Assembly: GCF_000223985.1 (NCBI RefSeq)
Contig: NZ_AFWV01000009.1
Coordinates: 1 to 64,000 of the forward strand
Length of the DNA stretch: 64,000 bases
DNA from: Thiocapsa marina 5811
GTDB taxonomy: Bacteria > Pseudomonadota > Gammaproteobacteria > Chromatiales > Chromatiaceae
Reading direction: 5' to 3'
This document shows positions 15,822 through 32,020 of this stretch, in pieces. Position numbers and translations under genes: made by a program. The number at the start of each line of letters is the position of its first letter. Position 1 is the first letter of the stretch. The notes below the pieces were generated by a model. The model did not search any database, was not told where the DNA came from, and saw nothing but the letters and a program-made list of their open reading frames with translations.

Positions 15822-16586
15822 TCACCAGTCCAGCTCGGCCGGATACTTTCGACGCGCGTTGACCTGCACCTCCTGCACCCGACCGTCGGCCAACCGGATG
15901 ACCCGATCGGCCATGTCGGCGATCACGGCGTTGTGCGTGATGACGGCCGTGGTGGTGCCGAGATCCCGGTTGATCTGTTGGATGACCTGCAGGACACGGA
16001 TACCTGTTTTCGAGTCCAAGGCACCAGTGGGCTCGTCGCAAAGCAGCACGGCCGGGCGCTTGGCGACGGCGCGGGCGATGGCCACGCGCTGCTGCTCGCC
16101 GCCGGAGAGTTGCGACGGGAAGTGGTCCAAACGATCGTCGAGCCCGACCAGGGCGAGTGCGTCTTCCGGGGTCATGGGGTCAGGGCTGATCTCGGTGACG
16201 ACGGCGACGTTCTCGCGCGCGGTCAGGCTGGAGATGAGGTTGTAGAACTGGAAGACGAAGCCGACATGTCGACGCCGGAAGGCGGTCAGCGCCTTGTCGT
16301 CGGCACCTGTCAAGTCCTGGTCGAGATAGCGGACCCGGCCGCCGGACGCACGGTCGAGTCCGCCGAGGATATTCAGCAGGGTGGATTTGCCGGAGCCCGA
16401 TGCCCCGAGCATGACCGCCAGCTCCCCGGCATAGAGCTCGATGTCGACGCCGCGCAGGGCTTGGATCTCGACCTCCCCCATGACGTAGGTCTTGACGAGG
16501 TTCTCGACGGCGAAGACGATCCGGCCGGGTGCCCGACATTCGCCGCGTCGCGTCTCATCGCCGGATGGGAATTCGGCCTGTACCAT
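15822..16586 (-). CDS. ABC transporter ATP-binding protein (MacB/LolD type), orphan
   Basis: A 254-aa ATPase. Walker [11 protein letters not shown]-loop FQFYNLI, signature [14 protein letters not shown], Walker [13 protein letters not shown] and the switch His (TAVITHNAV) are all present. The [18 protein letters not shown] stretch and tail place it with LolD/MacB-type exporters, which work with FtsX-like permeases. No permease adjoins it: the intergenic space ends in repeat copy A 20 bp upstream and the convergent batD lies downstream. It is either an orphan or serves a permease encoded elsewhere. The last codons (15822-15830) and start were not otherwise constrained. Confidence 0.88.
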
Positions 16587-16605: not shown

Positions 16606-16799
16606 TTAAACCGCGCCCGGCGCGGCGTGCGATGTTCTTGGATAGTATCGGCCTCGGCAGACTTGACGACAGCCTGAGTCGGCGCGGTTTAAAATGTTAA
16701 AAAATAATCATCTTAAACCGCGTCGCCGCCAAGGGTTGTAGATGCACCAAACGTCGAACTCACTCGAAAATGACGCATGTTGTTCCGGACGCAGTTTAA
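16606..16799 (+). repeat. Composite TTAAACCGCG repeat, copy A
   Basis: 194 bp. Module 1 (16606-16692, 87 bp) is bounded by TTAAACCGCGCC and GGCGCGGTTTAA. An AT-rich linker follows at 16693-16712. Module 2 (16713-16799, 87 bp) is bounded by TTAAACCGCGT and CGCAGTTTAA. It fills the gap between the orphan ABC gene (start 20 bp away) and the stop codon of the YihY gene (5 bp away). Four relatives lie at 20.4, 22.6, 28.5 and 29.2 kb. Confidence 0.9.
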
Positions 16800-16804
16800 G
16801 GCGA

Positions 16805-17731
16805 TCACCGAACGAATTCCTGCATGACCCTGACCGCCGATTTTCGGGGGACGACGGGTTTTCCGCGCGCATGGAGATACATGCGTGTGAAGGCCGCCCC
16901 CAGCAAGAGGATCAACGCCGAGTAGTACACCCAGAACAGGACGATGACGAGCGAGGCTGCCGCTCCGAAGGTAGACGCCTTCGCGGTGTGAGCAAGAAAC
17001 AGGGTAATGCCGTAGCGCCCGATCGCGAACATCAGGGCGGTGACGACGGCACCGATCATCACGTCCCGCCAGGAGAGGACGACGTCCGGCAGCACCTTGA
17101 AGAGGGTCGCGATGAAGGCCGTCGCGATCAGCAGTGAAATCGCCGATTGTCCGCTGTTCCACAACAGCTCCAAGCCCGGCAGCGAAAGGTCCAAATAGGG
17201 CGCGATGGCACCCAGCGCCGAGCTGATGACGCTGTAGAGCAACAACGCCAGGCCGATCAAGAGCACCACGAACAAGGCCAAGAGCCGCGTCATGGCCATG
17301 CGCAACAGTCCGCTGCTTTCGGGATTTGGTCTGACGCCCCAGATGGTGTTGAGCGAGAAGCGCAATTGGGTGAATACGGTGGTTGCACCCACTACGACGG
17401 CACCGATCCCGAGCAGGGTCGGCATCACGCCCGTCTTGTCCACGCGCGACATCAAGACCGCATGCTCGATCGCTTTGGCTGCGCCAACCCCGATGGTGTC
17501 CTGCAGTCGGGCGGCAATCTCGCCTTGGGCCGCACTTTCGCCCAGCACCAGGCCCAAGACCGCGACGACGATGACCAAGGTCGGTGCGAGTGAGAACAGC
17601 GTGAAGAAGGCCAATGCGCCGGCATGACTGAAGGCGTTGTGCTCGAGCCAAAGTCTGCCGGCATCCCGGGCGAGTTGAAATCCCTCGATCGATTTCGGCG
17701 CAAGAGGCTTCGAAATTTCCGTCATTGCCAT
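16805..17731 (-). CDS. YihY/virulence factor BrkB family inner-membrane protein
   Basis: A 308-aa polytopic membrane protein with about six transmembrane helices. Family hallmarks are the N-terminal H-x-A-F-S-H-A-G-A-L-A-F-F-T-L-F-S-L-A-P run, GATTVFTQLRFSLNTIWGV and the C-terminal FGAAASLVIVLFWVYYSALI. The tail is basic. Function is not settled: the family was once misnamed RNase BN, and transport roles have been proposed. Its start overlaps the end of a small outer-membrane-protein remnant, and its stop is 5 bp from repeat copy A. Confidence 0.9.
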   Translation of the reverse strand: MAMTEISKPLAPKSIEGFQLARDAGRLWLEHNAFSHAGALAFFTLFSLAPTLVIVVAVLGLVLGESAAQGEIAARLQDTIGVGAAKAIEHAVLMSRVDKTGVMPTLLGIGAVVVGATTVFTQLRFSLNTIWGVRPNPESSGLLRMAMTRLLALFVVLLIGLALLLYSVISSALGAIAPYLDLSLPGLELLWNSGQSAISLLIATAFIATLFKVLPDVVLSWRDVMIGAVVTALMFAIGRYGITLFLAHTAKASTFGAAASLVIVLFWVYYSALILLLGAAFTRMYLHARGKPVVPRKSAVRVMQEFVR

Positions 17732-17845
17732 TGATATCCGAGTTTGAGGAGCAGGGTGGTATCGGTGGTGAGTGCCTGATCGGACGGCTTGCTGTCGTAC
17801 TCGATCTGGTATTCCAATTGCCGCGGTCGCTGGTCAGCGAGGCAT
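17722..17845 (-). pseudogene. 3' fragment of a DUF481-like outer-membrane protein
   Basis: The minus frame ending at 17722 gives LEYQIEYDSKPSDQALTTDT and then LLLKLGYQW. This is the typical closing strands of DUF481/YdiY-like beta-barrel proteins, which end in an aromatic residue. Upstream in this frame the sequence runs into the end of the symporter gene without resemblance, so only about 40 codons remain. The TGA overlaps the YihY start. Interpreted as a deletion remnant. Confidence 0.45.
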
Positions 17846-20044
17846 TCAATCGAGCCACCCGAGAACGTTGCGGGCGATCGACCAGCGCGGCTCGCGCGTG
17901 GTGTCGAGTTCGCCGAGCATCCAATAGCGATAGAGCACGTCGACAGTGCCGTATCCCTTTGCATTGTCGAGCCAGGCATTGAAGAAGGTCAGAAGCTGCG
18001 GATCGGCATCCCGTGCGAGCGCATAGCCGAACGGGATCATGAGGATCGGTGTCGGTATGGTCAGGTTGAGCCGCGGATAACGGATGGTCCAGGCGGCCCC
18101 TTCCTCGGCGGCCATCAGGATGGCATCGAAGCGTGGTGGATCTTCGGTCAGGAGGGCGTCGAGGGCCACGTTGTCCTGCAGGATGACCTGCTGCGCATCG
18201 GGCAGCATGCGGTCGAGAAAGCGCGGGGTGGCGCGATTGTCGGTGGTCGCGATGCGGATGTCGCCGGCCGCCGCGATGGCCTCCCAGCTCTCGAACTCGC
18301 GCCGCCGATAGTCCGGCATGATCATCCCGATCGGGCCGTCGATGACCGGCACCGTCATCGCAAAGCTCAGGGTCATCTCCGGGACGATCGGCAGCAAGGA
18401 CATGAAGATATCGCACGTACCCTTATCGAGGGACGCCTCGGCGTCCGAGATCGAGTCCACGGGGATAAAGTCCACGCGGGCGTCGAGCCTCCTCGCGAAG
18501 CGATGGGTCATCTCGATATCGAAGCCGACCAGATCGCCGTGGCGATTGAAGAAGGACGAGGGATAGTCGCTGCGCTGATAGCAGGCACGCAGCACCCCGG
18601 TCTCCTGAATACGGGCCAGTGTCGCCGGTGCGCGCGGGGTCGTCTCGGGCGGCACCTCGCGATAAACCCTGTGCGGCTGAGGCGCCCGCAGCAAGGAGAG
18701 CCCTGCGAGCACCTGGTCCTTGGTGAAGGGGGCAACGAAGACGTAGGTATAGAAGGCACGGATCCCGATCAGGACCGCCAGCACCATCACCACGGAGAGG
18801 AGCGCGAAACGCACCAGGCGCCCCACGCGCACCTTCAGCGCGCCCTCCATGGCGTAGGCACCGATCAGGGCAATGGCGATGATATGCATGCCGGCCAGGA
18901 GTGTGCCGAAGCGGGCGCCGATGACGTCGACCGTGATGAAGACCTGGAACAGGTCGGCCGGCAAGCGCAGCAGATCGAACAGAAACGGTAGGGCCAGGAT
19001 GGTGCTGCCGAAGAGACTGGCGAGTCCGGCCCCGGCGATCAGCAGATAATCGCTGGCCGCGACGGACGCGCCGACGAACCAGCCGCCGAAGAGCACGAAC
19101 ATCAGAGACAGGACAAGGCCGAGGTTGGGAAAGGGAAAGGCCGCCGGGATCAGGATATCGATGGCGGACTCTTCCTGCTCGCTCGGCTCGCCGTCCTTCC
19201 CGTCGGTCTCGGCGACCAGCCGTTTGGCGTCGGCCGCCAGCACGGGCAGCACGATCAGCACGTTCGCCGTCGCGAAGGCCGTGATCAAGGGGCCGCGAAA
19301 GGCGCGAACAACGCTCGTGTAGCTCAGCGGCGTCAGCGCCGCGATCAGCCCGGGAATGATCCAGAGGCTGAGGATCAGGGCCATGGACACATAGGTCACG
19401 ATATAGACCTGGAGTCGCGCCAGATCGCCGATGTCGATGGTGCCGGCCGCCGCCGCGGTGATGGCGAACACCCCGTAAGGCGCGAGTCGGCCGATGAACC
19501 CTGTCATGGTCATCAAGGTATCGCCGACCGTGGAGAGCAGGTCGACGAAGCGCGCTTTGTTTTTGACCCCGATCAGGGCCACCCCGAAGAGGATGCTGAA
19601 GACGACGACGGCCGGCACGATCGCGAAGGCCAGGGAGGCGAAGATGTTCGAGGGGATATAGAGCTTGAGAAAATCGACCGCCGCGGGCTCCTGGATCTGG
19701 CTGGTGCTGAAGAAGGAGGCGGAGGCCCAGTTCGGGAAGGCCAAGGGGGACGACAAGACCACGGCCAAGCCGATGATCCAGAGCAGCAGCAGCACGCCGC
19801 CGGCCTTCAGACCGAGATGTTTGGCCTCGTCCAGGGTCAGTCGACCCAGCGACGTGATCAGGGCGACGATCACGTAGGGGATGACGGTCACCTGCAGCAA
19901 GGCGATGAAGATATCGCCTCCGAGCTGGAGGAAGGCCACCTCCTCGCCGAAGAAGAGACCGACGAGGATCCCCGCGCCCAGACCGATGAAGACCTGGGTC
20001 GCGATACCGAGCCTGCGTCGAGGCTGTCCGTTTTTCGGGCCCAT
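17846..20044 (-). CDS. Dicarboxylate-symporter-like protein fused to a periplasmic solute-binding domain
   Basis: A 732-aa fusion. Residues 1-400 are a DAACS (Na+/H+:dicarboxylate, GltP/DctA-like) transmembrane domain (LGIATQVFIGLGAGILVG; VIPYVIVALITSLGRL). An extra helix (about 411-430) follows and would carry the next domain outside. Residues about 475-720 form a type-3 extracellular solute-binding domain (GVLRACYQRSDYPSSFFN; LVGFDIEMTHRFARRLD). The substrate motifs of classical carriers are not conserved: the serine-rich SSSAATLP position reads FATANVLIVLP (257-267) and NMDGT is replaced by FPFPNLG (303-309). It may be a receptor or a carrier with altered specificity. The ATG at 20044 begins the conserved region. 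Confidence 0.85.
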   Translation of the reverse strand: MGPKNGQPRRRLGIATQVFIGLGAGILVGLFFGEEVAFLQLGGDIFIALLQVTVIPYVIVALITSLGRLTLDEAKHLGLKAGGVLLLLWIIGLAVVLSSPLAFPNWASASFFSTSQIQEPAAVDFLKLYIPSNIFASLAFAIVPAVVVFSILFGVALIGVKNKARFVDLLSTVGDTLMTMTGFIGRLAPYGVFAITAAAAGTIDIGDLARLQVYIVTYVSMALILSLWIIPGLIAALTPLSYTSVVRAFRGPLITAFATANVLIVLPVLAADAKRLVAETDGKDGEPSEQEESAIDILIPAAFPFPNLGLVLSLMFVLFGGWFVGASVAASDYLLIAGAGLASLFGSTILALPFLFDLLRLPADLFQVFITVDVIGARFGTLLAGMHIIAIALIGAYAMEGALKVRVGRLVRFALLSVVMVLAVLIGIRAFYTYVFVAPFTKDQVLAGLSLLRAPQPHRVYREVPPETTPRAPATLARIQETGVLRACYQRSDYPSSFFNRHGDLVGFDIEMTHRFARRLDARVDFIPVDSISDAEASLDKGTCDIFMSLLPIVPEMTLSFAMTVPVIDGPIGMIMPDYRRREFESWEAIAAAGDIRIATTDNRATPRFLDRMLPDAQQVILQDNVALDALLTEDPPRFDAILMAAEEGAAWTIRYPRLNLTIPTPILMIPFGYALARDADPQLLTFFNAWLDNAKGYGTVDVLYRYWMLGELDTTREPRWSIARNVLGWLD

Positions 20045-20439
20045 GCCGATGACCTCTCCTCGGGAAGGGCGCAGGCGGCGCAGACCGCATCTTGGCCGAA
20101 TCCCTTAGGCTCGATGGGTCGGACTCAGCCCTTGATGTCCGATACCCTTATGTGAGGGTCTTGCGGAATCGATGGCCTCGTCGCGACGCTCGACGAGCGT
20201 TTCGGTTGGTTGCAGGACCCGGGACGCGCCGCCCGGTCCATCGGGATCCGGCCGCATAGGATACGAGCCAACTGCAGAGGTTGAGCGGCGGTGTCGATCA
20301 CCGCATGCCCCGACTGGCCGGCAGGTAAACCCTGGATTCCGGCGAGCGTTCGGGGGTTGGTTCTGGACGCGTCGATCGCGATGCGACGAACGCGCCCGGT
20401 GGAGAACAGGTTACGGCCCGCCTTCGAGCCGATCAAGCC
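20045..20439. other. Interval without a supported gene
   Basis: About 395 bp between the divergent-facing symporter start and repeat copy B. A 103-codon open frame on the minus strand (20125-20436) has no recognisable domain and no ribosome site, so I did not call it. The symporter promoter must be in this segment. Confidence 0.4.
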
Positions 20440-20631
20440 ATAAACCGCGCCCAGCGCGGTATGCGATGTTTTTGAATGATATCGGCCCCGGCGGACTTGA
20501 CGACCGTCGGAGTCGGCGCGGTTTAAGATTTTAAGAAATAAATCATTTTAAACCGCGTCCGCCAAAGATCGTGGATGCCACATAGGACGAGCTCGCTCGA
20601 CAACGAGCATGTCGCTCCGGACGCGGTTTAG
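20440..20631 (+). repeat. Composite TTAAACCGCG repeat, copy B
   Basis: 192 bp. Module 1 is 20440-20526, the AT-rich linker is 20527-20547, and module 2 is 20548-20631. The orientation is the same as copy A. Its right end overlaps the last codon of atpA: the TAA stop at 20628-20630 is part of the repeat terminus (CTAAACCGCG on the minus strand). Confidence 0.9.
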
Positions 20632-22562
20632 GTCGTCATCGCGTCGATCTCGGCGAGCAGACGCGTGTAATCCGGTGATTCGGGTGCGGCGTAGTGGAAG
20701 TTCTTGAAGAGTCCGGTCAGCTTGTTGAAGTGGTGTCGCACCGCGGTCTTGTCCTCGAAGCTACGCTCCTGCTCGACGATGTCCCAGACGCGGTCGAAGG
20801 TGAGTTTTTGGCGATCCATGGGGACTGCGCCGTCGACAGCGTCGAAGGCGTCCTGCTGGAGGAAGACCATGTCGAGAAAGAGCGCCTTTTGATAGACGAC
20901 ATAGTCGTCCGTCGTGATGCCCTCCTCGCCCGTCACCTGCATCATCTGCTGAACGCTGTCGCCGCGGACGAGAAGATCCTTGAGGGCCTTGACGCGCTCG
21001 GTCCAGGTCGGGTCGAGGTTGCGGGCGTACCAGTCGGACAACTGCTCCAGGTAGCGCGACCAGGAGATCAGCGGATCGATCGCCGGGTAGAAGCGGCGGT
21101 ACGCCCGATCGTAGGAGAGCCCGAGGAAGCTCTTGACCGTGCTGAGTGTGCCCTGCGTGACCGGCTCTTCGAAGTTGCCCCCGGCCGGTGAGACCGTGCC
21201 GATCATGGTCAGGCTGCCCGAGCTGCCGTCGGCACTTCGGATCAGACCGGCGCGCTCGTAGACGCTGCGGATCGCCGATTCCAGATAGGCCGGGAAGGCC
21301 TCCTCGCCCGGGATCTCCTCCAGACGCCCCGAGGTCTCGCGCATGGCCTGTGCCCAGCGCGAGGTCGAATCGGCCAGCAGCAGAACGTGGTAGCCCATCT
21401 GGCGGTAATACTCGCCGATGGTGATGCCGGTGTAGATGGACGCCTCGCGCGCCGCGACCGGCATGGAAGAGGTGTTGCAGATGATGATGGTGCGGTCCAT
21501 CAGCGAGCCGCCGGTCGCCGGGTCCTTGATGCGCGGGAACTCCTGGATGGTTTCCACGACCTCGCCGGCACGCTCGCCGCAGGCGACCACGAGCACGATA
21601 TCCACCGCCGCGTGCTTGGCCAGCGAGTGCTGCAGGACGGTCTTGCCGGCGCCGAAGGGGCCGGGGATGCAGGCCGTCCCGCCGCGCGCGACCGGGAAGA
21701 AGGTATCGACGGTACGCATCGTCGTGATCATCGGCTCGTTCGGATAGAGCCGCTCGGTCGTGCGCTCGCGCAACATATGCTCGGTCAAGGGGCGGCGGAC
21801 CGGCCAGCGCTGGGTCAGGTCGAGCGAGTGCTCCTCGCCTCGGCCGTCGCGGATGCGCGCGACCGGCGTGTCGAGCGTCACGCTCCCTTCCTGAATCCAG
21901 GTGACCTCGACCTCGCCGGCCTGGTCGAACGGCACCATGATCTTGTGCGTGAAGCGGCCTTCGGCGACCGTTCCGAGCAGACCCCCGGCCCTCAGGCGCG
22001 CCCCTTGCGAGACGGCGGGGACGAAGGACCACTTGCGCTCTCGGTCCAATGGATCGACATCGACACCGCGCGGCAGGAAGATGCCGTGCTCGATGGCGAT
22101 CTTGTCGAGCGGGCTTTGCAGGCCGTCGTAGACCTGACCGAGCAGGCCCGGGCCGAGGATGACCGACAACATCTCGCCGGTCTGCTCGACCGGGTCGCCG
22201 ATGGTGATGCCGCGCGTGTCTTCGAACACCTGGACGTCGGCGGTATACCCGCGGACCCGCAGGACCTCGGCCTTGAGCCGTTCCTGGCGTCCGTCGGCGG
22301 CGACCCGCCCCGGCAGGATCAGGACCACCTCGTTCTTCATCAGGGAGCGACGCGTCCCCTTCTCCCAGCCGGCCTCGATGGTCACCAGGCTCTCCTGCAC
22401 CGCCACGACATGCGCGAGTGCGTCGGCCTGTGCGGGAGGGGTCGGCGGGGCGGTCCGGGCGTTGTCGTCCATCGCTGCGAGGTCCTGAGTCCGTGGGGCG
22501 CCGTCGGACGCACGCGGCCGCTCCTCATGCTTTGGTTTGCCTCGGGTCGTATGTCTTGCCAT
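20628..22562 (-). CDS. atpA: V/A-type ATPase catalytic subunit A
   Basis: About 644 aa from the ATG at 22562; a TTG at 22595 and an ATG at 22472 are alternatives, the last giving a length nearer the family norm. It is the catalytic, ATP-hydrolysing subunit of the V1/A1 head. The P-loop reads [17 protein letters not shown]; catalytic and nucleotide-contact stretches [23 protein letters not shown] and [16 protein letters not shown] are intact. The family's non-homologous insert region ([14 protein letters not shown]) is present. It is the last gene of the operon, separated from the preceding subunit gene by repeat copy C; its stop codon comes from repeat copy B. Confidence 0.95.
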
Positions 22563-22608
22563 GGGTAGATCCAGTAGGGCGCCGACGTCGAGCAAACGGT
22601 CGACAGGG

Positions 22609-22813
22609 TTAAACCGCGTCTAAACCGCGTCCAGAGCGAGATGCGCACTTTCGAGTGAGCTTAACGTTTGGTGCATTCACGGCCCTTAGCGGAAACGCGG
22701 TTTAGAACAATATATTTTTTAATATCTTAAACCGCGCCGGCTCCAGCGGTCGTCAAAACTACCGGGGCCGATCCCGTCCGAAAACATCGCATACCAGACA
22801 GGGCGCGGTTTAA
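22609..22813 (-). repeat. Composite TTAAACCGCG repeat, copy C (inverted)
   Basis: In the opposite orientation to the other four. On the plus strand, module 2 is 22620-22705, the AT-rich linker is 22706-22726, and module 1 is 22727-22813. An extra partial terminus TTAAACCGCGTC (22609-22620) precedes module 2, a tandem duplication of the end. It sits inside the V-ATPase operon between the DUF2764 gene and atpA, and its right end supplies the TAA stop of the DUF2764 gene (22810-22812). Confidence 0.9.
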
Positions 22814-23523
22814 GCGCGGACGGGTCGGGCGGTGTCGGCGGACGGCCGCAGGCTCTTCTCGACCCCCGCCATCGCCTGCTCGACCAGCTCGTCGAAGCGT
22901 CGCGCGGCCTCCTCGCCGTCGTACGTCGTCCAGCGCGCGATCATGTCCCAGCGCAAGACATAAATGACAACGGCCTCGAAATCGAGATAGTGCCCGTCGC
23001 TGCAGCTCTCCAAGTGGTTCCACACCGCGCCGAGCAGCAGGCGCTCGAGATCGACGGTGCCGCCGCGTGCAAGCAGACGCTCGGCCTCGGGCAGCCAGGG
23101 AAAGGCGCGCTCGAGACCGAAGGCAGGCTCGTTCCAGTGCTGCATGATCCGGCTCGTCCAGCGCCCGAATCCCCAGCGGCGGTCGCGCGGCGCGGACTCG
23201 CCGCGGTGGCGCCGCCGCAGGGCGGCGACCAGCGTGCGCAGCTCGAGCCGCCAGGTCACCAGATCGCGGATGAAGGGGTTCGTAATCCCCTCGATGACCT
23301 GTTTCGCCCGGACCACGGACTGTGCGTCGGTTCGGTCGGGCTCCTGTTGCGCCCACTCGAGCAATCGTCTGGCGTGGCGCAGACAGTCGGCCTCGTCTGG
23401 ATCGAGCAAGGCGAGACGCTGGTTCAGCCGGATGCGCGACAAGGGGGTCTGCGTCGCACCGAAGAGCGGGCCGTGATACGGCAACGCGCTCAGGAGCATC
23501 GCGTAACGGTCGGAGTGCGCCAC
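22810..23523 (-). CDS. V-ATPase-associated DUF2764-like subunit (subunit C equivalent)
   Basis: A 237-aa soluble protein encoded between atpE and atpA. In Chlamydia-type bacterial V-ATPase operons this slot holds a DUF2764 protein, thought to replace subunit C. The N-terminus (LLSALPYHGPLF) matches the LVASLP-type start of that family, and the C-terminal part (YLDFEAVVIYVLRWDMIARW) its F-x-A-I-x-Y-x-L-x-x-x-I-x-x-R-W pattern. The assignment rests on position and these weak motifs. The stop codon is contributed by repeat copy C. Confidence 0.7.
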   Translation of the reverse strand: MAHSDRYAMLLSALPYHGPLFGATQTPLSRIRLNQRLALLDPDEADCLRHARRLLEWAQQEPDRTDAQSVVRAKQVIEGITNPFIRDLVTWRLELRTLVAALRRRHRGESAPRDRRWGFGRWTSRIMQHWNEPAFGLERAFPWLPEAERLLARGGTVDLERLLLGAVWNHLESCSDGHYLDFEAVVIYVLRWDMIARWTTYDGEEAARRFDELVEQAMAGVEKSLRPSADTARPVRA

Positions 23524-23538
23524 GGTCGCCTCGTCTCC

Positions 23539-24243
23539 TTACTTCACCATGCCTTCGAGGATCGCCCGAAAGCGCGGTTGCAGGTGCGCGAGCAGGGTGG
23601 CGGCGACCGTCTCGTCGGTCAGGTCGATGTGCACGTCCTTGCCCTTGAGTGCGAGCCGGATGCCCTTGCCCTCCGTTCCGGCGGCGACCCCGAAGGTCAC
23701 GCCATCGGCCAGGATGTTGCCGGCCAAGGAGAGCACGAAGTGGGACAATGAACCCTCACGCAGCTCCAGCGGGTTGCGACGAAGCTCCTCGGGACTGACC
23801 AGCGCCTTGGGCAACTGGACCTCGACCGCCTGTCCGGCGTCGACCCCGGCCTCCGCGCGTGCCTTGGCGGCCACCTCCAGGATCAAGCGCTCGAGGAATG
23901 CCTCCTGCTCGATCTTGGCGGCGATGAGGCGTTTGACCTCGTCGCTGAAGCGATCGGAAAGGTCGGCCTTGAGCCGCAGCACGGTGTCGCGCATGGCGAT
24001 CCGCAGCGCCTCTTCACCGCCCTTTCGCAGCGCATCGACCTCTTGTTGGGTCTCCTCGCGGATGGCCTTGGCGCGGTTCTCGGCCTCGCGCACGATGCGG
24101 GCCGCCTCGCGCCGCGCCTCCGCCTCGATCCGTTGCGCCTCGGCCTGACCGACCTGCACGCCCTCGTCGCGCAATCGCTCGATCAGCGCCTCGACGCCGG
24201 AGGATGCGAGGCCCTTGAGTGCACCCTTCTCTTCTATGGTCAT
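23539..24243 (-). CDS. atpE: V/A-type ATPase peripheral stalk subunit E
   Basis: A 234-aa protein starting with the ATG at 24243 (MTIEEKGALKGLASSGVEAL); upstream in-frame sequence shadows the proteolipid gene. The first ~110 residues form a long Ala/Arg/Glu-rich amphipathic coiled coil (AQRIEAEARREAARIVREAE), the peripheral-stalk helix that pairs with subunit I or H. The C-terminal globular part (about 180-234) contacts the A/B head. Its length and layout fit bacterial NtpE. It is separated from the preceding proteolipid gene by about 30 bp and from the next gene by 15 bp. Confidence 0.88.
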   Translation of the reverse strand: MTIEEKGALKGLASSGVEALIERLRDEGVQVGQAEAQRIEAEARREAARIVREAENRAKAIREETQQEVDALRKGGEEALRIAMRDTVLRLKADLSDRFSDEVKRLIAAKIEQEAFLERLILEVAAKARAEAGVDAGQAVEVQLPKALVSPEELRRNPLELREGSLSHFVLSLAGNILADGVTFGVAAGTEGKGIRLALKGKDVHIDLTDETVAATLLAHLQPRFRAILEGMVK

Positions 24244-24272
24244 GGTATCGCGCCCCTCGCTGCTCGTGCGGC

Positions 24273-24719
24273 TCATCCGGGGATCCCGCCGGCCAAGACC
24301 AGCGCAAACACGAAGGCGAACACGGCGAAACCCTCGACGATCGCGGCCGGCGCCAGCGAGAGACCGAAGATCTCGGGCTTGGTCTTGCTGGCATGAATCG
24401 CCGAGGCGCACGCCTGGCCCTGACGCATCGCCGAGAAGAGCAGCGCGAGACCCGAGAGCAGACCGATACCGAAGAGCGCCGGTGCGGTCACGGGTGTGAC
24501 GTCGCGCTGCAGGCTGAACATGATGACGATGCCGTAGATGACCTGCGAGGAGGGCATCACCGACACACCGATGTAGCGTCCGTAGCCCGAATCCGTATCC
24601 ACCATGGCGCCGATCGCCGCCTGTCCGGCAACCGCGCAGCCGATGACGCTGCCGATCGCACCCAGGGCCATGGGGGCGAAGAGTCCGGCCCAGCCCAGCG
24701 CAACCACAAATTCGTTCAT
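24273..24719 (-). CDS. atpK: V/A-type ATPase proteolipid subunit K
   Basis: A 148-aa rotor-ring subunit with four transmembrane helices as two hairpins. The ion-carrying glutamate lies in the last helix (AAIVEGFAVFAFVF). Helix 2 carries MPSSQVIYG, aligning with LPGTQGLYG of Enterococcus hirae NtpK, and helix 3 carries FSAMRQGQ, aligning with FSGIAQGK. Thus the residues that bind Na+ in that protein (Leu/Thr/Gln/Gln/Glu) have counterparts Met/Ser/Gln/Gln/Glu. This favours Na+ coupling (inference). Its ATG overlaps the atpI stop as ATGA. Confidence 0.92.
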   Translation of the reverse strand: MNEFVVALGWAGLFAPMALGAIGSVIGCAVAGQAAIGAMVDTDSGYGRYIGVSVMPSSQVIYGIVIMFSLQRDVTPVTAPALFGIGLLSGLALLFSAMRQGQACASAIHASKTKPEIFGLSLAPAAIVEGFAVFAFVFALVLAGGIPG

Positions 24720-26521
24720 TCGCGCAACTCCGTCCGTTTAAAGGGTTTGAAGGGGTAGCCTTCGCCGGCCAGGGCCCAGTTGTAGAATTCGATGAAGTTC
24801 AGCCGCAGCCCGTGGACCACGCCGCTCATGAGCGCGAGCAGCAGATTCAGCGCATGTCCGGCCAGGAGGATGAGGATGGCGAGCAGCAGTCCCAGGCCCG
24901 GCAGCTCGGTTGCGACGTCCCGGGCCAGTCCGTTGAAGGTCATCGCCATCGAGGCGGAGGCCAGGCCGAGTGCGAAGAGCCGCAGATAGGAGAGCACGTC
25001 CCCGAAGACCTGCGTCACCCGCACCAGGTTGCTCAGACCATCCAGGCCGCGCAGGGCCAACGCCTTCACGCCGTCCACGCGCCGATCGCTGCCCATGAGC
25101 AGGACCACGGCGAACCCGAGGCCCATCAGGATCTGCGCCGAAAGGACGACCCACTCGGGTGCCCCGGCATCACCCGCAATCCAGAGCGTGAAGCCGCCGA
25201 CCATCACCGCGATCCAGCCGATGGCCACACGTCCGGCAGCTCGGCCGCGTTGCGCGCCGGCCATCTCGAGGTTGGCGAGGATCAGATGGACCACGCCGAT
25301 CCCGACCGAGAGCTGCATCATGACCTCGAAATCGTTGATATCGAGGAGATGCAGATGCCCCGGGAGGCTGTCCGGGCGGGGCGCGAAACCGAAATAACTC
25401 CCCACCAGGACACCCCAGACCACGGATGTGCCGACCAGCGCCGCGGCCAGGATGCGCAGGCGCCCGCCGAGCGCGCTGCGGCCGATCTTGCGCCAATAGG
25501 CGAGCAGCAAGACGCCCAAGAGGGCCGCGTAGCCGGCATCGGAGAGGATCATCGCGAAAAAGGCCGCGAAGGAGAAGAACAACACCCGCGAAGGATCCCA
25601 GGAGTCGTAGGCCGGCATCTGGTAGAAGGCCACCAGGTCCTGGCCGGCGGCGATGGGGCCGGGATTGTCGAGCAGGGTCGGCGGTGCGTCGTCCGGTCCG
25701 GGCGTCTCCGTCAAGAGTGCCAGGCCCTGTTGCTCGGCGAGCGCCTGGACCGGCTCGACCGCGTCTTCGGGGACCCAACCCTGCACCAGGAATAGGGACT
25801 CCTCGTCGCGTGTCTGCGCCTGTGCGTGGCGAAGCTGGGCCGCGTCCTCGGCCTGGGCGAGATGTGTCGAGATGAGATAGATCCAGCGTGTCAGGGCAAC
25901 GTGCTCGGCCCGGATCTCTTCGAGCTCGAGCTCGGCCGCCTCGAGACGACGGCGGACCTCGGAGAGACTCAAAGCCCCGGCCAGGGTGCGCGGCACCGGC
26001 AGGGCATCCCGCGGCGGCTCGTCCGGGTGGATCACCACGACCCAGGATTGACGGTTGTCGCGATGCACCACCTGCCAAGGGAGCTCGAGCGCTGCGAGCT
26101 GCGCCATCTGGCGCTGCGGCACGATGTAGAACCAAAACTTGCGCCCGGCCAGATCCGGCTCGGGCGGTAGTGTGAAATCGCCCCAGGGCTCAAGCTCGGC
26201 GATGCGCTCGACGAGGGCATCGCGGCGGTCGCTCGTGTCGCGCAGGCGTTGCTGATTCTCCAGGACGGCCGCGATGGTACCGGGCAGATCGAAGCCCTCC
26301 GGGTCACGGACCTGTCGACGCTTCTCGCGCGAGTCCTGTAGATACCGCAGGGCCTGCAGCGCATCGACGGCATGGCTGGCGGGCTCCTTCTCGGGCTCCC
26401 GCGGTGCCGGTCGCAAGGGGATCAGATGCAGACAGCCGAGCGTTTGGAGCTGCTCGAGGACGGCATCCTTATCCGTGGCGAGACCGGCCAAGGTCAGGCG
26501 CGTCAGGCGTTGAATGCTCAT
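24716..26521 (-). CDS. atpI: V/A-type ATPase membrane subunit I (a-subunit)
   Basis: A 601-aa subunit combining a cytoplasmic N-terminal arm (about 1-290, with coiled-coil LEAAELELEEIRAEH) and a C-terminal membrane domain of about seven or eight helices that forms the ion half-channels. Landmarks are FFAMILSDAGYA (first helix loop), FGDVLSYLRLFALGLASASM (helix bearing the essential Arg) and NLLLALMSGVVHGLRLNFIEFYNW near the end, all typical of V/A a-type subunits. The start overlaps the end of atpD (ATGA). It is intact and of normal length. Confidence 0.93.
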   Translation of the reverse strand: MSIQRLTRLTLAGLATDKDAVLEQLQTLGCLHLIPLRPAPREPEKEPASHAVDALQALRYLQDSREKRRQVRDPEGFDLPGTIAAVLENQQRLRDTSDRRDALVERIAELEPWGDFTLPPEPDLAGRKFWFYIVPQRQMAQLAALELPWQVVHRDNRQSWVVVIHPDEPPRDALPVPRTLAGALSLSEVRRRLEAAELELEEIRAEHVALTRWIYLISTHLAQAEDAAQLRHAQAQTRDEESLFLVQGWVPEDAVEPVQALAEQQGLALLTETPGPDDAPPTLLDNPGPIAAGQDLVAFYQMPAYDSWDPSRVLFFSFAAFFAMILSDAGYAALLGVLLLAYWRKIGRSALGGRLRILAAALVGTSVVWGVLVGSYFGFAPRPDSLPGHLHLLDINDFEVMMQLSVGIGVVHLILANLEMAGAQRGRAAGRVAIGWIAVMVGGFTLWIAGDAGAPEWVVLSAQILMGLGFAVVLLMGSDRRVDGVKALALRGLDGLSNLVRVTQVFGDVLSYLRLFALGLASASMAMTFNGLARDVATELPGLGLLLAILILLAGHALNLLLALMSGVVHGLRLNFIEFYNWALAGEGYPFKPFKRTELRE

Positions 26522-27123
26522 GCCGATGCCTCTCTGAGTCGTTTGCCCTTCGCGATCTTCGAGCGCACGATCGCCGCGCGCTCGGCGTCGGAGAGGTGGA
26601 CGCGAATCCGCTTGATGTTCTCGCGTGTGCGCGGGATCAATACCTTGTCGAACAGATTCACCCGTTGAGTGACCTTGCGCACCGCTTCATCGAGCAAGAC
26701 GAGACGCCGATCGTGCAGCGCCAGTTGTGCTTGGAGCGTCAGCATCTCGGAGAGTGCATCGACCAAGACATCCACCCAATGGGGCTTGCTCAAGAAGCCG
26801 TAGTCGCGTTTCACGAGATCGAGCCCTTCGAGCACGGGCAACCGCGTCCCGAGAAGGTTTTCCTCGCCGAGGCGTGCGCCGCGCACATGCACCAGGTTGC
26901 TCAGCTCGATCTCACGGTTGGCGAGCATGGGCAAGTTCTCCGTCACGCGCGTGCGCAGCACTGTAATCTTGCGACGGGTTTCCTCTTGGGCCACGACCTC
27001 CTTGGCGCGCTCGGTCATGATCTGTTTGCGCTTCAGATCGAGCGAGGGCAGGTAGCGCTCGTAGGTCTGGAGCGCGCGGTTCTGCTTGGCGAGCGAGGAT
27101 TTGCTGAGACTCACGCGTGACAT
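26518..27123 (-). CDS. atpD: V/A-type ATPase central rotor subunit D
   Basis: A 201-aa central-axle subunit, long helical throughout: an N-terminal helix (MSRVSLSKSSLAKQNRALQT) and a C-terminal helix (VNLFDKVLIPRTRENIKRIR) forming the antiparallel coiled coil that turns inside the A3B3 head. The highly conserved RVNLFDKVLIP block identifies subunit D. It follows atpB by 18 bp and overlaps atpI. Confidence 0.93.
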   Translation of the reverse strand: MSRVSLSKSSLAKQNRALQTYERYLPSLDLKRKQIMTERAKEVVAQEETRRKITVLRTRVTENLPMLANREIELSNLVHVRGARLGEENLLGTRLPVLEGLDLVKRDYGFLSKPHWVDVLVDALSEMLTLQAQLALHDRRLVLLDEAVRKVTQRVNLFDKVLIPRTRENIKRIRVHLSDAERAAIVRSKIAKGKRLREASA

Positions 27124-27141
27124 GCGATGGACTGCTCCGCG

Positions 27142-28512
27142 TCAAGCCGCCGCTTGGATCCGCTCGTCGTCGTCGAGCGTCGGGAGGTACTTATCGATCA
27201 GGGTCTCCTTCATCAGCAGCTCGTCGCGATCGAAGCATTCGGCAAGGGTCCGCCAGCACAGATCCAAACCCTTCTCCAACGGGATGCTGACATCGATATC
27301 CATGAAGCGCTCCCGGAAGAGGTTCCCGAACTTGATCAAGCGGATGTCGAATTCGGACAGATCGAAGGCCATCGCCTGTTTCTGCTCGGCATCGCGGGCG
27401 CCGGAGTAGAAGCGGATCATGGTGTTCATGATCTGGCTGTGGTCCTCGCGGGTGACCTTGCCGATCACGTGCTGCTTCAAGCGCGAGAGCGAGCCGAAGG
27501 GGTCGAGCATGCCGTCGTGGAGATAGAACTGGCCCTCCGTGATGTAGCCGGTATTGTCCGGCACCGGGTGCGTCACATCGCCGCCCGGCATGGTGGTCAC
27601 GGTGAGGATGGTGAGCGAGCCGCCGTCCTTGAAGTCGGCGGCCTTCTCGTAACGTCGTGCGAGCTGGGAGTAAAGGTCGCCCATGTAGCCGCGATTGGAC
27701 GGCACGGCCTCCATCGCGATGCCGACCTCCTTCATGGCGTCGGCATAGGCGGTCATGTCGCTGAGCAAAACGAGGACGCGCTTGCCCTCCTCCACCGCGA
27801 ACCGCTCGGCAACCGCAAGGGCCATATCCGGAACCAACAGACGCTCGACCACGGGGTCGGATGCGAGGTTGACGAACATGACGGTGCGGGCGAACACGCC
27901 CGCGTCCTCGAAGCGACGCAGAAAGAAGTGATAGTCGTCGAAGATGAGACCGAGCCCGCCGAAGACGACGATGTCGGCATCGGCCTGGATGCCGATGCGC
28001 GCCAGCAGCGCGTTGTAGGGCTCTCCGGCAACCGAGAAGATCGGGATCTTCTGACTCTCCACCAGAGAGTTGAAGATGTCGATCATGGGGACGTCGGTGC
28101 GCACCATCTTGGAGGCAAGCGAGCGTCTGGCCGGGTTGGCCGAGGGGCCGTCGATCTCGATCTTGGGGTCTTGAGCAAGGCCGGGCCCGGTATCGAACGG
28201 GGTGCCGTCGCCGCGAAAGACGCGACCCAGGACGTTCGGCGAGTAGGTCACGCGCATCGGGTGACCGAGGAAGCGGACCGACGCCTGCGTGGAGAGCCCC
28301 TTGGTCCCCGAGAAGACCTGAAGCGACACCAGCTCGCCTTCGAGCCTGATGACGCGCGCCATCGATTTGAAACCGCTCGGGTCCTCGACCCATCCCAGGT
28401 CGCCGAACGCGACCCGTTCGCCCTGCTCGGACACCGGGGGCGGAACCAGGACCTTGAGGAGGTCGCCGACGATCTCGACGACCTTGGAGTAGCGCACGAG
28501 CGTGTGGGACAT
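27142..28512 (-). CDS. atpB: V/A-type ATPase regulatory subunit B
   Basis: A 456-aa non-catalytic nucleotide-site subunit of the A3B3 head. It has the family N-terminal beta-barrel, a region without a canonical P-loop at the A-subunit position (FSVAGEPYNALLARIGIQAD), and conserved blocks VMFVNLASDPVVERLLVPDM, VLLSDMTAYADAMKE and NRGYMGDLYSQLARRYE. It is the first gene of this V-ATPase operon, which is unusual because subunit A normally precedes B. Repeat copy D lies 21 bp upstream of the start. Confidence 0.94.
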   Translation of the reverse strand: MSHTLVRYSKVVEIVGDLLKVLVPPPVSEQGERVAFGDLGWVEDPSGFKSMARVIRLEGELVSLQVFSGTKGLSTQASVRFLGHPMRVTYSPNVLGRVFRGDGTPFDTGPGLAQDPKIEIDGPSANPARRSLASKMVRTDVPMIDIFNSLVESQKIPIFSVAGEPYNALLARIGIQADADIVVFGGLGLIFDDYHFFLRRFEDAGVFARTVMFVNLASDPVVERLLVPDMALAVAERFAVEEGKRVLVLLSDMTAYADAMKEVGIAMEAVPSNRGYMGDLYSQLARRYEKAADFKDGGSLTILTVTTMPGGDVTHPVPDNTGYITEGQFYLHDGMLDPFGSLSRLKQHVIGKVTREDHSQIMNTMIRFYSGARDAEQKQAMAFDLSEFDIRLIKFGNLFRERFMDIDVSIPLEKGLDLCWRTLAECFDRDELLMKETLIDKYLPTLDDDERIQAAA

Positions 28513-28533
28513 CGGACGTGTTTCCCCGCGTGT

Positions 28534-28726
28534 TTAAACCGCGCCCGTCGCGGTATGTGATGCTTTTGAACGGGATCGGCCTCGGCAGACTCGACGATTC
28601 TCGGAGGCGGCGCGGTTTAAAGTTTTTGAAAAATAAACTGCAAACCGCGTCTCCGTTAAGGATCTGAAAAATCCCCGACCCCGACACGACGTGAGAATGA
28701 TGCGTGTCGCTCCGGACGCGGTTTAA
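28534..28726 (+). repeat. Composite TTAAACCGCG repeat, copy D
   Basis: 193 bp. Module 1 is 28534-28620 (87 bp), the AT-rich linker is 28621-28640, and module 2 is about 28640-28726. The left edge of module 2 is degenerate (TGCAAACCGCG). It lies directly upstream of atpB, so it overlaps the region where the V-ATPase promoter would be expected. It abuts a different palindromic element on its right. Confidence 0.88.
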
Positions 28727-28967
28727 CCTAGATCCGGCAGTTGAACGCCCCCTGGAGTGCGTCCCGCGCGGTGTCCGGCAAGGCGCAACGAGGCGGCGTA
28801 GTGGTTCTACGCCAACGCGTTGCAACGCAGCCGGGCGCCGCGCGGGGCGTGCTCCAGGGGGCGTAGCGGCCCTCACCCGACGGGTGATCCCTCGGACGAC
28901 CACGAACTTCAAGGCAGTCAAAGCCTTGCATGAAGCACGAAGCGGTCAACTGCCGGATCTAGGTTTA
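28724..28967. repeat. Nested palindromic element with TTAAACC-like ends
   Basis: Outer arms of about 20 bp (28725-28745 and 28946-28965) read AACCTAGATCCGGCAGTTG and its reverse complement, ending in TTTAACC/GGTTTAA. Inner arms of 26 bp (28746-28771 and 28838-28863; about three mismatches) enclose further small hairpins such as CGTAG-TGGTT-CTACG. No credible gene lies inside. The termini resemble those of the adjoining composite repeat, but the internal sequence is unrelated. From 28968 to 29151 nothing is recognised. Confidence 0.75.
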
Positions 28968-29151
28968 AGTGCCTATCTCAGGTCATGGAAGTTGCGCGAC
29001 TGTAGGTCCTCTGATCCCGAGTCTATGCGGCGCTCATTCAAGGATCAAATGAAACTCGATGTGCGGACCGCGACTTCGGCCTGATCTTCGTGTGGTGTCC
29101 GCGGTCCTGCAAGGGGCCGTGTCGTCGCCGCCGAGTCGTCTCGCCGCAGCG

Positions 29152-29347
29152 TTAAACCGCGCCCCATTTGGTATGCGATGTTTTCGGACGGGATCGGCCC
29201 CGGTCGTTTTGACGACCGCTGGAGCTGGCGCGGTTTAAGATATTAAAAAATACATTAGTCTAAACCGCGTTTTTCCGCTAAGGGCCGTGGATGCACCAAA
29301 CGTCAAGCTCACTCGAAAGTGCGCATCTCGCTCTGGACGCGGTTTAG
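29152..29347 (+). repeat. Composite TTAAACCGCG repeat, copy E
   Basis: 196 bp. Module 1 is 29152-29238 (87 bp), the AT-rich linker is 29239-29259, and module 2 is 29260-29347. It is the closest relative of copy C in sequence (shared GTATGCGATGTTTTCGGACG and ATGCACCAAACGT segments), but in the other orientation. It lies about 55 bp beyond the stop of the split permease gene. Confidence 0.9.
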
Positions 29348-30103
29348 GCTCGATCGCGAGTGCCCCGAACGAAGGCCGCGAGCAGCTAGGCGCAGCAGGC
29401 CATCATGACTCCCGCAAAGCCGTCGTGACCGGAAGACTCGCGGCGCGAAGCGCCGGGAAGATGCCCCCGATGAATCCAATGCCGAGCGCCCACTGAAGGC
29501 CGCGGATCAAGAGCTCCGGGGTCACCTGGAACTGGAAGACGACCTGACTGAAATTCGAACCCAATGTCGAGACCGTGAAGCCTTGAAACAAGGCCCAGGC
29601 GATTCCGGCCCCGAGCAGCCCCCCGGCCGCGGCAAGGGTCATGGTCTCCAGCATGACCGCGACCACCACGGGGAGTCCGGTGAAGCCCAAGGCCCGCAGC
29701 GTCGCGATCTCGCGTGCTCGGCTCGCGACTGCCGCATACATGGTATTGAGCGCGCCGAAGACGGCGCCGAGCGCCATCAGGACGGCCACGCCGATCCCGA
29801 CCGCACGGATCACACGGGTGAGACGCTCCGACTGCTTGCCGTAATACTCGCGCGTGGTCTGCACCTCGACCCGTAGGCGCGGGTCGGCGCTCAGCGCCGC
29901 ACGAAGGGTCTCGAGCGCCGCCGGCGAGGTCAACCGCACGGCCACGGACTGGAAGCCGTTGCGCCGGTAGGCGCCGGCGATGGATTCGGCGTCGCCCCAG
30001 ACCTCGGACTCGTGCGTGTCGCCCGAGGCGAACACCCCGACGATCTGCCACGCCTGATTGTTCAACACGAGACTGTCGCCGATGTCCAGTCCGCTGAACT
30101 GTC

Positions 30104-32020
30104 GAGCCATTTGCGCTGCTGCGTTTTTCCTGGACCTGGTGAGCATCGTCGAGGGTCAAGCCGGCCGGCACGGCGGGTTTTTCACGCCTTCGCGGACGCC
30201 CGGCAGCGCGCCAGGGCCCACAAATGCGACTCACTCTCAATAAGGCCGGGCGACGAACAGCCGCGCCCGCAGGCGACGCCGCGGCAGCCTGGCCGGGAGG
30301 ACCGAGCGGTCAACGCTAACCGGTCGCGGGAATCGGTTGCACCAACGAGCGCATCTGTTCGATGCGCCCCTGCCGGACATGCCCCAAGGCCATCGCCATC
30401 ATGACCGCCAGGGCCAAGCCGACGCGGGTGGTCATCTTCGCCCGCCCCCGAATGAAGTGCCGCTCGAAGCCGAAGCTGTTGTCGATGCGGTTGTTGATCC
30501 GTTCCAGGGCGCTGCGCCGGTTGTAGTCGCGCTGCCAACTCGGGCTGCCGTGGGGCGTGGGCACGAAGCTGCGCCGATCGTGCTCGTCGAGGCGGATCCG
30601 CACGATGCGCCCGTAGGCGCCGGGCGAGACGCCGCCGGCTTGATGACAGGCGTCGCGGCCCTGGCAGTCCAGGTCATAGGCGGCGGCCGGGCAGCGGTAT
30701 TTCAGGGCGTTGCGATCGGCCTCGAAGCCTTGGAAGGCCAAGTCGCGCTGCGTGCCGGTCTGCGGGCAAATGCAGTGGACGCTGCCTTTTTCGGTATGCA
30801 CGATGGTGTCGACCCGCTCGGGGAAGAGGGGGCGCGTGATCGGCTTGGACGGATCGTAGTCGGGGTGTTGCTTCTCTTCGCGCCACAGCTCGCGGGTGTC
30901 GATCAAGGGGCGGATGGCGTACTCATCCCACAACAGCGCCTTGGTTTCGGCGCTGTCCAGACCGCGATCGGCGCTGAAGTCGCCGCAGCGCTGCGCCAAC
31001 GCGGGGGTCTCGGCGAACAGCTCCTTGATCATCGCCCGCAGTTCGGGCTGCTCGGCGTGGGAGGCCGGGGTCAGGTGCATCGCCACGGGGATCTCGTAGC
31101 GGGTGTCGGCGATCAGGTGCAGACCGTAGCCGAACCAGCTCTTGACCTTGCTCCAAGCCTTGCCGGTGCGCGCATCGATCCCGCCGCTCTCGTGCTTGCC
31201 CCAATCGGCATCCGGATCGGAGGTTGTCCCGGTGGTGCGACTGGTCCGCCCGGTACTGTGGCTCTCGATGGCCTTGCCGTCATAGCCGAGATGACAGCCG
31301 AAATCCGGCAACGCCGCCATCAACTGCTCGCGCAGGATCCCGATCATCCCCGTCACCATCCCCAACGTCTCCTCCAATTCGACGACGTTGGCCAGAAAAC
31401 GCGAGAAGCTCGAACTGGTAGGCACCGCCGCCTGCGGATCGGCCGGCGCCTCGCGCACCGCCTGCAGGCGTCCGGTTGCCGGATCGCGCACCAACTGCGT
31501 GACGGGTTTGCGTTGGATCGGCAAGACCGCAAAGCCGCACGCCTGCAGCAACGCCGGGTTGCGCCCCAGTTCGCGCAGCAGCGCTTCCACCGAGGGATGC
31601 TGGAAGACCACCCCGGCGATCAGTGCATTCCACATCGCCGCCACCGGGTAGTCGTCGCGGCCCGCCCCGCGCATGACTTCCAGGTATTGCAGCAGCCGCG
31701 CATCCGGGAGATGATCCCGCGCCAAATAGAAGCGATCCAAATCGCTGCGCGCGTCCACATCCCGCCAGTCAAACAAGCTCGGTTCAATGGTCGCCATGGG
31801 GTCCTCCTGCAAAGGATCGTCTCGACAACGATATGATCCCTTGGCGACCGCCTCTTTGCACGCCCCGCGAGGCCGGGGTGACTGTTCGCCCACCGCCCGA
31901 AACCGCGCACGTAAGTGACTGATCGATCGTCGATGCCGGGGCCGGAACCGGGGTAAACGAAAATGCCTCGACCCGGTGCAGCCTGTTACTTCAGTAGCTT
32001 ACTGACAGCGCAAAGGGCTC
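30104..32020 (-). mobile_element. Complete insertion sequence, 1917 bp
   Basis: Terminal inverted repeats GAGCCATTTGCGCTG (30104-30118) and, reversed, GAGCCCTTTGCGCTG (32006-32020) differ at one base. Both sides carry the direct repeat ACTGTC (30098-30103 and 32021-32026), a 6-bp target duplication. Excision in silico restores the host permease frame exactly. It contains a single transposase gene. The IS family was not determined with certainty. Confidence 0.9.
30316..31797 (-). CDS. IS transposase with DDE domain
   Basis: A 493-aa transposase from the ATG at 31797 (MATIEPSLFDWRDVDARSDL). A DUF772-like N-terminal part precedes a DDE catalytic core: HLGYDGKAI (first Asp), FSADRGLDSAETK (second Asp) and RRSALERINNRIDNSFGFER (Glu), followed by a C-terminal helix. 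A Cys/His-containing insert (CICPQTG; CPAAAYDLDCQGRDACH) lies between the second and third acidic residues, as in IS1182/ISNCY-like enzymes. The frame is intact, so the element could still be mobile. Confidence 0.85.
   Translation of the reverse strand: MATIEPSLFDWRDVDARSDLDRFYLARDHLPDARLLQYLEVMRGAGRDDYPVAAMWNALIAGVVFQHPSVEALLRELGRNPALLQACGFAVLPIQRKPVTQLVRDPATGRLQAVREAPADPQAAVPTSSSFSRFLANVVELEETLGMVTGMIGILREQLMAALPDFGCHLGYDGKAIESHSTGRTSRTTGTTSDPDADWGKHESGGIDARTGKAWSKVKSWFGYGLHLIADTRYEIPVAMHLTPASHAEQPELRAMIKELFAETPALAQRCGDFSADRGLDSAETKALLWDEYAIRPLIDTRELWREEKQHPDYDPSKPITRPLFPERVDTIVHTEKGSVHCICPQTGTQRDLAFQGFEADRNALKYRCPAAAYDLDCQGRDACHQAGGVSPGAYGRIVRIRLDEHDRRSFVPTPHGSPSWQRDYNRRSALERINNRIDNSFGFERHFIRGRAKMTTRVGLALAVMMAMALGHVRQGRIEQMRSLVQPIPATG

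Follow-up and report, generated by a model that had tools for sequence, protein, structure and literature searches.

The 64,000-nucleotide stretch of Thiocapsa marina 5811 DNA analyzed here (contig NZ_AFWV01000009.1, positions 1 to 64,000; hereafter the window) harbors five copies of a composite repeat of ~195 bp (c1 to c5, Table 1), which belong to a large family of short, mobile DNA units found in purple sulfur bacteria. We put the probability at roughly 80% that the family consists of small non-autonomous elements resembling miniature inverted-repeat transposable elements (MITEs), which land on stop codons and restore termination there. The stop-codon placement, which a first-pass annotation of the window had missed, is the main feature of the family and is a new finding of this work.

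Mobility was established by comparing orthologous sites in genomes of the same genus (G000 to G010, where G000 is the genome of the window, 5.59 Mb in 62 contigs), in which the region of the V/A-type ATPase genes is collinear among relatives. The search yielded 30 empty-site rows, several per site, from which we dropped those where the flanks scored ~10–26/30 and the junctions disagreed or were irregular (G002.L271 15552, three rows; G010.L263 3259; three further targets of G010.L270 16993; G003.L273 9675; and the G000.L267/L002 rows); the rows from G007 were excluded as representing a remnant and not an empty site. Eight usable pairs of filled and empty sites remained (S1 to S8, Table 1; junctions read by eye). 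At all eight, the filled allele consists of the left flank, TAAACC...GGTTTA and the right flank, and the empty allele has 2 bp in place of the unit. Site S8 involves a 94-bp single A arm and not a pair, with 60 of 60 flanking bases scored identical. Five of the empty sites lie at a stop codon (S3, S4, S5, S6 by eye, and S7), and S1, S2 and S8 lie elsewhere. The site of c5 is empty in G003, G004 and G010, where the flanks join cleanly, indicating that this unit was gained recently and as one piece.

No clear flanking direct duplication of 2–9 bp was found, the largest excess over shuffled pairs being 0.071 (at 2 bp). The triplet preceding ACCGCG is TAA at 469 of 554 ends and TGA at 39, and nine units carry CTGA at both ends in inverted symmetry; the terminal triplet is accordingly part of the element's own inverted repeat and does not stem from a target duplication. 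Over 28 comparisons of orthologous filled sites, mean identity was 0.90 in the flanks and 0.83 in the units, against 0.79 for random pairs of units. Some of these sites fit vertical descent (unit 0.92, flanks 0.93–0.95), while others, such as c1 compared with G004 (L192; flanks 0.95, unit 0.79), hold units no more alike than random pairs and so appear to have been converted or refilled. At one TAG stop, vacant in G008, units face in opposite directions in G010 (L263 9698–9887) and G000 (L262 10262–10454), reflecting either a separate insertion or an inversion in place.

The position of the units relative to genes is highly non-random. None of 100 units (1.19 Mb) lies inside a predicted gene, compared with 80% of random placements, and the distances to gene 3' ends show a sharp peak of 34 at −4/−3, where the TAA of the element is the stop codon, versus a total of 27 over the next 28 positions. 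Among 451 unique sides, 135 adjoin coding DNA, and the element TAA is in frame in 121 of these, with 11 and 3 in the other two frames. When TGAACC ends were included and flanks were clustered to drop shared sites, 404 clusters remained, 120 of them coding, with 107 in frame and 13 not; in a control using random stop triplets, only 7 of 74 coding cases were in frame. At least one end lies on a stop in 90 of the 187 units with both flanks usable, and both ends do so in three; by gene calls the proportion is 36 of 101 units, so that about 36–48% of units have an end that doubles as a host gene's stop codon. The A and B ends are used equally at stops (36/132 vs 31/114).

Relatives lacking the exact end were used to ask where the host gene terminates without it. 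The gene ends at the same terminal residue in 26 of 31 comparisons (TAA 11, TAG 8, TGA 7), from which it follows that the stops carried by the elements sit on native stops; in the other five the C-terminus is shifted by −4, −4, −3, +6 and +19 residues. In a looser comparison, with the element up to 12 bp from the gene end, 24 non-decayed rows read TGA 17, TAA 5 and TAG 2. Stop switching in element-free orthologues was from TAG to TGA in 1 of 27 cases and from TAA to TGA in 12 of 28, and later change thus accounts for only part of the TGA cases.

The whole ~195-bp unit moves as one piece, and we propose that its insertion replaces 2 bp, as judged by length accounting. At a stop codon the replaced bases would be the first two of the codon, the end of the element re-creating TAA and the third base staying on the far side; with the stop re-created in place the host protein is unchanged, and the element would thereby settle harmlessly at the end of a gene. 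A transposase or recombinase presumably acts in trans on the ends. The bias for stops could arise from a short YTRR-like target preference (Y, pyrimidine; R, purine) combined with selection for harmless insertions. Only 9.3% of non-coding triplets of the form Y plus stop are real stops, compared with 36 of 101 units on stops, a ~4-fold excess at stops that holds even if every such triplet could serve as a target. A stricter version, in which the insertion machinery actively targets termination codons, swaps the first two stop bases for a 195-bp stop-bearing unit without duplication, and can revisit one stop in either orientation, is possible but doubtful. We know of no transposase family that works in this way. 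Because roughly every second unit lies elsewhere and no stop is seen at three of the eight empty sites, a YTRR-like preference plus selection is favored over pure targeting.

Several observations weigh against the proposal that the units are MITE-like elements restoring stop codons. Targeting of stops, with its 4-fold excess, cannot be separated cleanly from selection; some 50% of units lie away from stops, and the empty sites TTCC, TTGG and TCCG contain none. The gene calls were made with a crude, home-made codon-usage finder, and the 26 same-residue rows correspond by hand count to 16 distinct sites, at three of which the relative seems to have a decayed end; the remaining 13 distinct non-decayed sites read TAG 5, TAA 4 and TGA 4. 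At S1, S5, S6 and S7 one adjoining base differs as well, and with such a difference at four of eight sites a replaced stretch of 3–4 bp is possible. S6 (G10 79758) was retained despite a right-flank score of 10, its frame being judged by eye in a poorly conserved flank. No transposase was found inside the unit or linked to it, and a search for an autonomous copy over about 1.4 Mb, in which 63 of 548 ends were orphans and formed ten facing pairs, gave no convincing candidate. Finally, the hairpin formed by the whole unit finds no support in co-variation.

Two other accounts concern the way in which insertion itself might work. The units could be MITEs of the IS630/Tc1-mariner type with a core AACCGCG...CGCGGTT that inserts at TA and duplicates it, TAA and TAG stops being where, in GC-rich DNA, a harmless TA is most often met. 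Consistent with this, length accounting fits TA...TA around the core, the empty sites S5 and S7 read TA, the outer Y and R bases fit a palindromic YTAR target, and TA-containing stops are found in 19 of the 26 same-length rows (9 of the 13 distinct non-decayed sites, counted by hand) versus 28% of 594 background genes. However, six of the eight empty sites are not TA, 17 of the 24 non-decayed orthologue rows in the looser comparison end in TGA, and the units bounded by TGAACC...GGTTCA are inverted-symmetric and not directly duplicated, which makes this account unlikely. We consider it rather less likely still that the units are repeats of the repetitive extragenic palindrome (REP) or REP doublet (REPIN) type, which a Y1 tyrosine transposase (REP-associated tyrosine transposase, RAYT) would mobilize in single-stranded form. 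Such repeats share with ours a high copy number, palindromic head-to-head dimers and the absence of a target duplication, and each of the five element-bearing genomes tested has Y1_Tnp genes (46 matches in total). Yet in the 38 loci analyzed out of these 46 matches (122.9 kb; two loci cover one place), a module was found nearby at only three places, one of them weak, where ~12 would be expected from the background of ~0.1 unit/kb, and the GTAG/CGTC tag and short-stem anatomy set out in the available part of PMC3733652 are absent from the consensus modules by inspection.

The remaining accounts explain the positions by selection or by function. Random insertion without target preference, followed by selection that spares harmless copies and so enriches stops as neutral positions, agrees with the finding of no unit among 100 inside genes, with ends that nearly always bring an inward stop triplet, and with the insertions away from stops at S1, S2 and S8. 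It accords poorly with the excess on the stop itself (34) over the next 28 positions (27), which are about equally harmless, and with the TAG stop that is empty in G008 and bears opposite orientations in G010 and G000, although in-place inversion could also explain the latter; on balance, we hold random insertion to be somewhat unlikely, if the strongest of these four competitors. Alternatively, the repeats might be maintained by the host as 3'-end elements serving transcription termination or mRNA 3'-end stability, with position reflecting function. Ends at or just past stops and a strong predicted structure speak for this, and there is a precedent in the enterobacterial repetitive intergenic consensus (ERIC), which at 3' ends affects transcripts according to the relevant section of PMC10969869. 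The lack of co-variation, the equal use of A and B ends, and the several orthologous sites that are empty, reduced to a remnant or a single arm, or occupied by an unlike unit all argue against such a role, which we judge improbable.

Searching the genome and related Chromatiaceae, as had been suggested in the first-pass annotation, uncovered a family with tens to hundreds of exact-ended copies per genome. Counts rest on an exact pattern of two facing ends 55–75 bp apart and on the sampling of genomes. The pattern occurs 131 times in G000, where the reversed control pattern gave no match, and 210 times in G001, 149 in G002, 145 in G003, 98 in G004, 76 in G007, 58 in G008 and 283 in G010; no module of the exact pattern was found in G005, G006 and G009, more distant members of the genus. 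A draw of 57 genomes from the family, including G000 and G004, contained five positives (G000 131, G004 98, G057 201, G043 17, G055 3), that is, 3 of 55 sampled members beyond G000 and G004. In a class-wide draw of 274 genomes the exact pattern was present in G000 only and in none of the 273 others. The sampled counts bound the distribution; a scan of genome contigs does not, as its matches listed are incomplete, the titled records among the matches listed (80 of at least 108 stretches) all being from Chromatiaceae (Thiocapsa, Thiobaca, Thiocystis, Lamprocystis and Chromatiaceae bins). No matching stretch was found in the viral contigs searched.

The unit is built from an A and a B arm of ~87 bp each, inverted with heads outward and joined by an A/T linker of ~21 bp. 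Inverted ends of ~11–12 bp, TRAACCGCGYC...GRCGCGGTTYA, bound each arm and the whole unit; the loci were collected by exact or near-exact ends, so the conservation of these ends is not evidence in itself, while the results on frame, position and empty sites are independent of the collection. Profiles built from 252 of 272 unique modules in three clusters recovered 328 unit occurrences in 2.41 Mb, overlapping loci being counted more than once. These comprise 162 A/B pairs with heads outward (82 A+B− and 80 B+A−, against one A−B− and one B+A+), 64 single A arms, 28 single B arms, 50 single modules of a third type (C), 12 C/C pairs and 12 others. In 108 unique pairs (accepted gap 10–40 bp) the linkers measure 15–23 bp, with 98 at 20–22 bp and 61 at exactly 21 bp, and share the conserved core ATTAAAAAATAT.

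Single arms can derive from pairs, given that the site of c4 holds A and B in G003 and G010 and A only in G004, where A runs directly into the outer B end through the common CGCGGTTTA; recombination between CGCGGTTTAA direct repeats would produce such copies. Mini-palindromes of 25 bp (TTAAACCGCGCCCGGCGCGGTTTAG-like), which may have arisen from the A arm by internal deletion, were seen at G000:C54 83348–83372 (L206) and at G004 block position 106530. An 88-bp subtype of the A arm (e.g., L035, L031) has, by eye, a near-perfect inner hairpin of 26 bp (CCAGCTCCGAC...GTCGGAGCTGG), unlike the main A subtype. Two facing orphan ends lie 1.3 kb apart at G000:C54 227599–228898 (L213).

Folding was examined in 24 of the 108 units using a home-made dinucleotide shuffle. 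The whole unit folds best as one long hairpin, with mean RNA energy z-scores of −3.8 and −3.5 on the two strands. Co-variation between the arms was not detected (overall z 0.4, interior z 1.2), the arms of one unit matching each other no better than those of other units; columns 37 and 42 stand out (6.2 and 4.0) without forming a pattern. Folding of the alignment revealed no internal stem conserved beyond the ~11-bp ends, the interior of the consensus being mostly unpaired, and little concerted change apart from the pair 11/77. Of the identities offered by the first-pass annotation, that of a paired-hairpin unit like the bacterial interspersed mosaic element (BIME) is therefore borne out in the strong fold, as one long hairpin, and not in co-variation or a conserved internal stem, and that of an RNA element finds no support. 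A structured RNA was rejected, the two Rfam matches falling far below gathering scores and no conserved fold with compensatory change being present. A coding role was likewise rejected on a six-frame test of synonymous change in subfamilies A2 (141 modules), B1 (69) and B2 (38), which gave z from −2.2 to +1.7 and no consistent frame; the lower conservation of the B arm at one codon phase, noticed at first look, was not upheld by this test. The third suggestion, a non-autonomous element, agrees with the filled and empty orthologous sites, the tens to hundreds of copies per genome and the lack of an internal gene.

Within the window, a gap-free repeat finder recovered all five reported copies, with 70–95% identity or complementarity over most of their length. 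Chance similarity of short ends is excluded as their explanation: TTAAACCGCG, allowing up to one mismatch, occurs 21 times versus 2.1 expected, a number reached by none of 100 shuffles, and none of these ends lies beyond 29347 in the window. The lengths initially assigned hold throughout, with module 1 at 87 bp in all five copies, module 2 at 84–88 bp and the A/T-rich linker at 20–21 bp. Positions were correct to within about 11 bases, the copy placed at 22609 having its module proper from 22620. The ends had been described as kept, and this needs amending at four of ten outer ends, which read ATAA, CTAA or TTTAG and not TTAA or TTTAA; the right end of c1 reads GCAGTTTAA, and at 28641 module 2 has a degenerate inner end (CAAACCGCG). 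Module 2, the B arm, is an inverted distant homologue of module 1, the A arm (mean identity 57%, both read from the outer end), which makes the composite a single imperfect palindrome that contains two more inverted repeats.

Table 1. Repeat units of the window and the eight filled/empty site pairs used for junction analysis
Feature	Coordinates or site	Strand	Composition	Empty 4-mer	Replaced	Relation to stop
c1	16606-16799	+	A arm 16606-16692, linker 16693-16712, B arm (inverted) 16713-16799
c2	20440-20631	+	A arm 20440-20526, linker 20527-20547, B arm (inverted) 20548-20631
Partial end copy	22609-22619	+	extra 11 bp (TTAAACCGCGT) adjoining c3
c3 (inverted)	22620-22813	−	B arm 22620-22705, linker 22706-22726, A arm 22727-22813
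c4	28534-28726	+	A arm 28534-28620, linker 28621-28640, B arm (inverted) 28641-28726
c5	29152-29347	+	A arm 29152-29238, linker 29239-29259, B arm (inverted) 29260-29347
S1	c5			TTCC (G003/G004), TGCC (G010)	TC	not stop
S2	c4 site			TTGG (G001)	TG	not stop
S3	L121/L023 site			CTGA	TG	at stop
S4	G1 169052			TTGA	TG	at stop
S5	c3			TTAT (G008)	TA	at stop
S6	G10 79758 vs C54			CTGA	TG	stop judged by eye
S7	G010.L263 9698			CTAG (G008)	TA	at stop
S8	G010.L270 16993		single A arm	TCCG (G001)	CC	not stop

Two of the five units supply a stop codon to a neighboring gene. The right end of c2 provides the TAA (20628–20630) of a V/A-type ATPase subunit gene (20628–22595, − strand), whose orthologue in G008 and G001 ends at the same residue with TGA. 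The right end of c3 provides the TAA (22810–22812) of a DUF2764-domain gene (22810–23523, − strand); the site is empty in G008, where the gene stops with TAA at the same residue. The 11-bp partial end beside c3 is found in G003 too, and G007 has a remnant with it; this tandem end is possibly the trace of a nested or repeated insertion at one stop. Unit c1 lies 5 bp past the stop of a BrkB/YihY-family gene (16805–17731, − strand), its site being filled in G003, G004 and G010 and reduced to a remnant in G001. Unit c4 precedes the start of an ATPase subunit gene (27142–28512, − strand) by 21 bp, and the c4 site is empty in G001.

Other features of the region are recorded here in their own right. 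A single open reading frame at 17846–20044 (−) combines a dicarboxylate symporter domain (SDF) with a periplasmic solute-binding domain (SBP_bac_3), a fusion that seems unusual. An ABC ATPase and an FtsX-type permease (15822–16586 and 29403–30146, −) flank the ATPase operon 13 kb apart and may be parts of one transporter. A DDE transposase gene (DUF772/DDE_Tnp_1) is located at 30316–31893 (−), about 1 kb from c5.

The closest analogues appear to be the mycobacterial interspersed repetitive units (MIRUs) and the ERIC and Correia elements (Correia repeat enclosed element, CREE). MIRUs reportedly recognize a DTGA target. They are described in the available part of PMC12548453 as short, apparently mobile repeats that insert at start codons, with an internal open reading frame coupled to the gene and little effect on it. 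Our units resemble them in inserting at a gene-boundary codon, here the stop (107 of 120 independent coding flanks in frame), and differ in being palindromic, in showing no codon constraint in any consistent frame, in replacing 2 bp, and in supplying the stop of the upstream gene. ERIC and CREE are, in the sections of PMC10969869 that treat them, small intergenic mobile repeats with no internal gene and tens to hundreds of copies, whose terminal repeats affect transcripts. Judged by description, the units resemble them as small, gene-free intergenic repeats of similar copy number, and are set apart by two related arms, a fixed linker, a strong stop-codon position and the lack of a TA duplication at most empty sites.

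Head-to-head palindromic dimers and high copy number are shared with REP, BIME and REPIN repeats; REP is a stem-loop of 20–40 bp tagged GTAG or CGTC (PMC3733652, in the part available), whereas our modules measure ~87 bp, have no such tag and show no association with Y1 genes. QMITE2 of Coxiella burnetii, a MITE found mainly in 3' untranslated regions, is similar in its 3' placement, and the one sentence on it in PMC10969869 reports no exact replacement of a stop codon. A word search of the available text of that MITE review returned no mention of "stop codon". The units are MITE-like in the broad sense, being short, non-coding, mobile as a unit and bounded by terminal inverted repeats, and they depart from MITEs in having no target-site duplication; from IS630/Tc1-mariner MITEs they depart in the TA target and its duplication, with TA at two of eight empty sites and inverted-symmetric TGA/TCA ends. 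In the open PubMed Central (PMC) literature we recognized no earlier description of the repeat.

Short mobile repeats are abundant in the intergenic DNA of bacteria. For annotation, these results mean that many stop codons and gene 3' ends in these genomes are made by a repeat. Close relatives differ in whether a given site is empty, filled, apparently refilled or occupied by a single arm, which, together with up to hundreds of copies per genome, makes the contributions of targeting and selection directly testable. The unit carries a stop at both ends and is often seated on a native one, usually with no change in the host protein, which may be part of how these repeats reside harmlessly in the genomes of purple sulfur bacteria.

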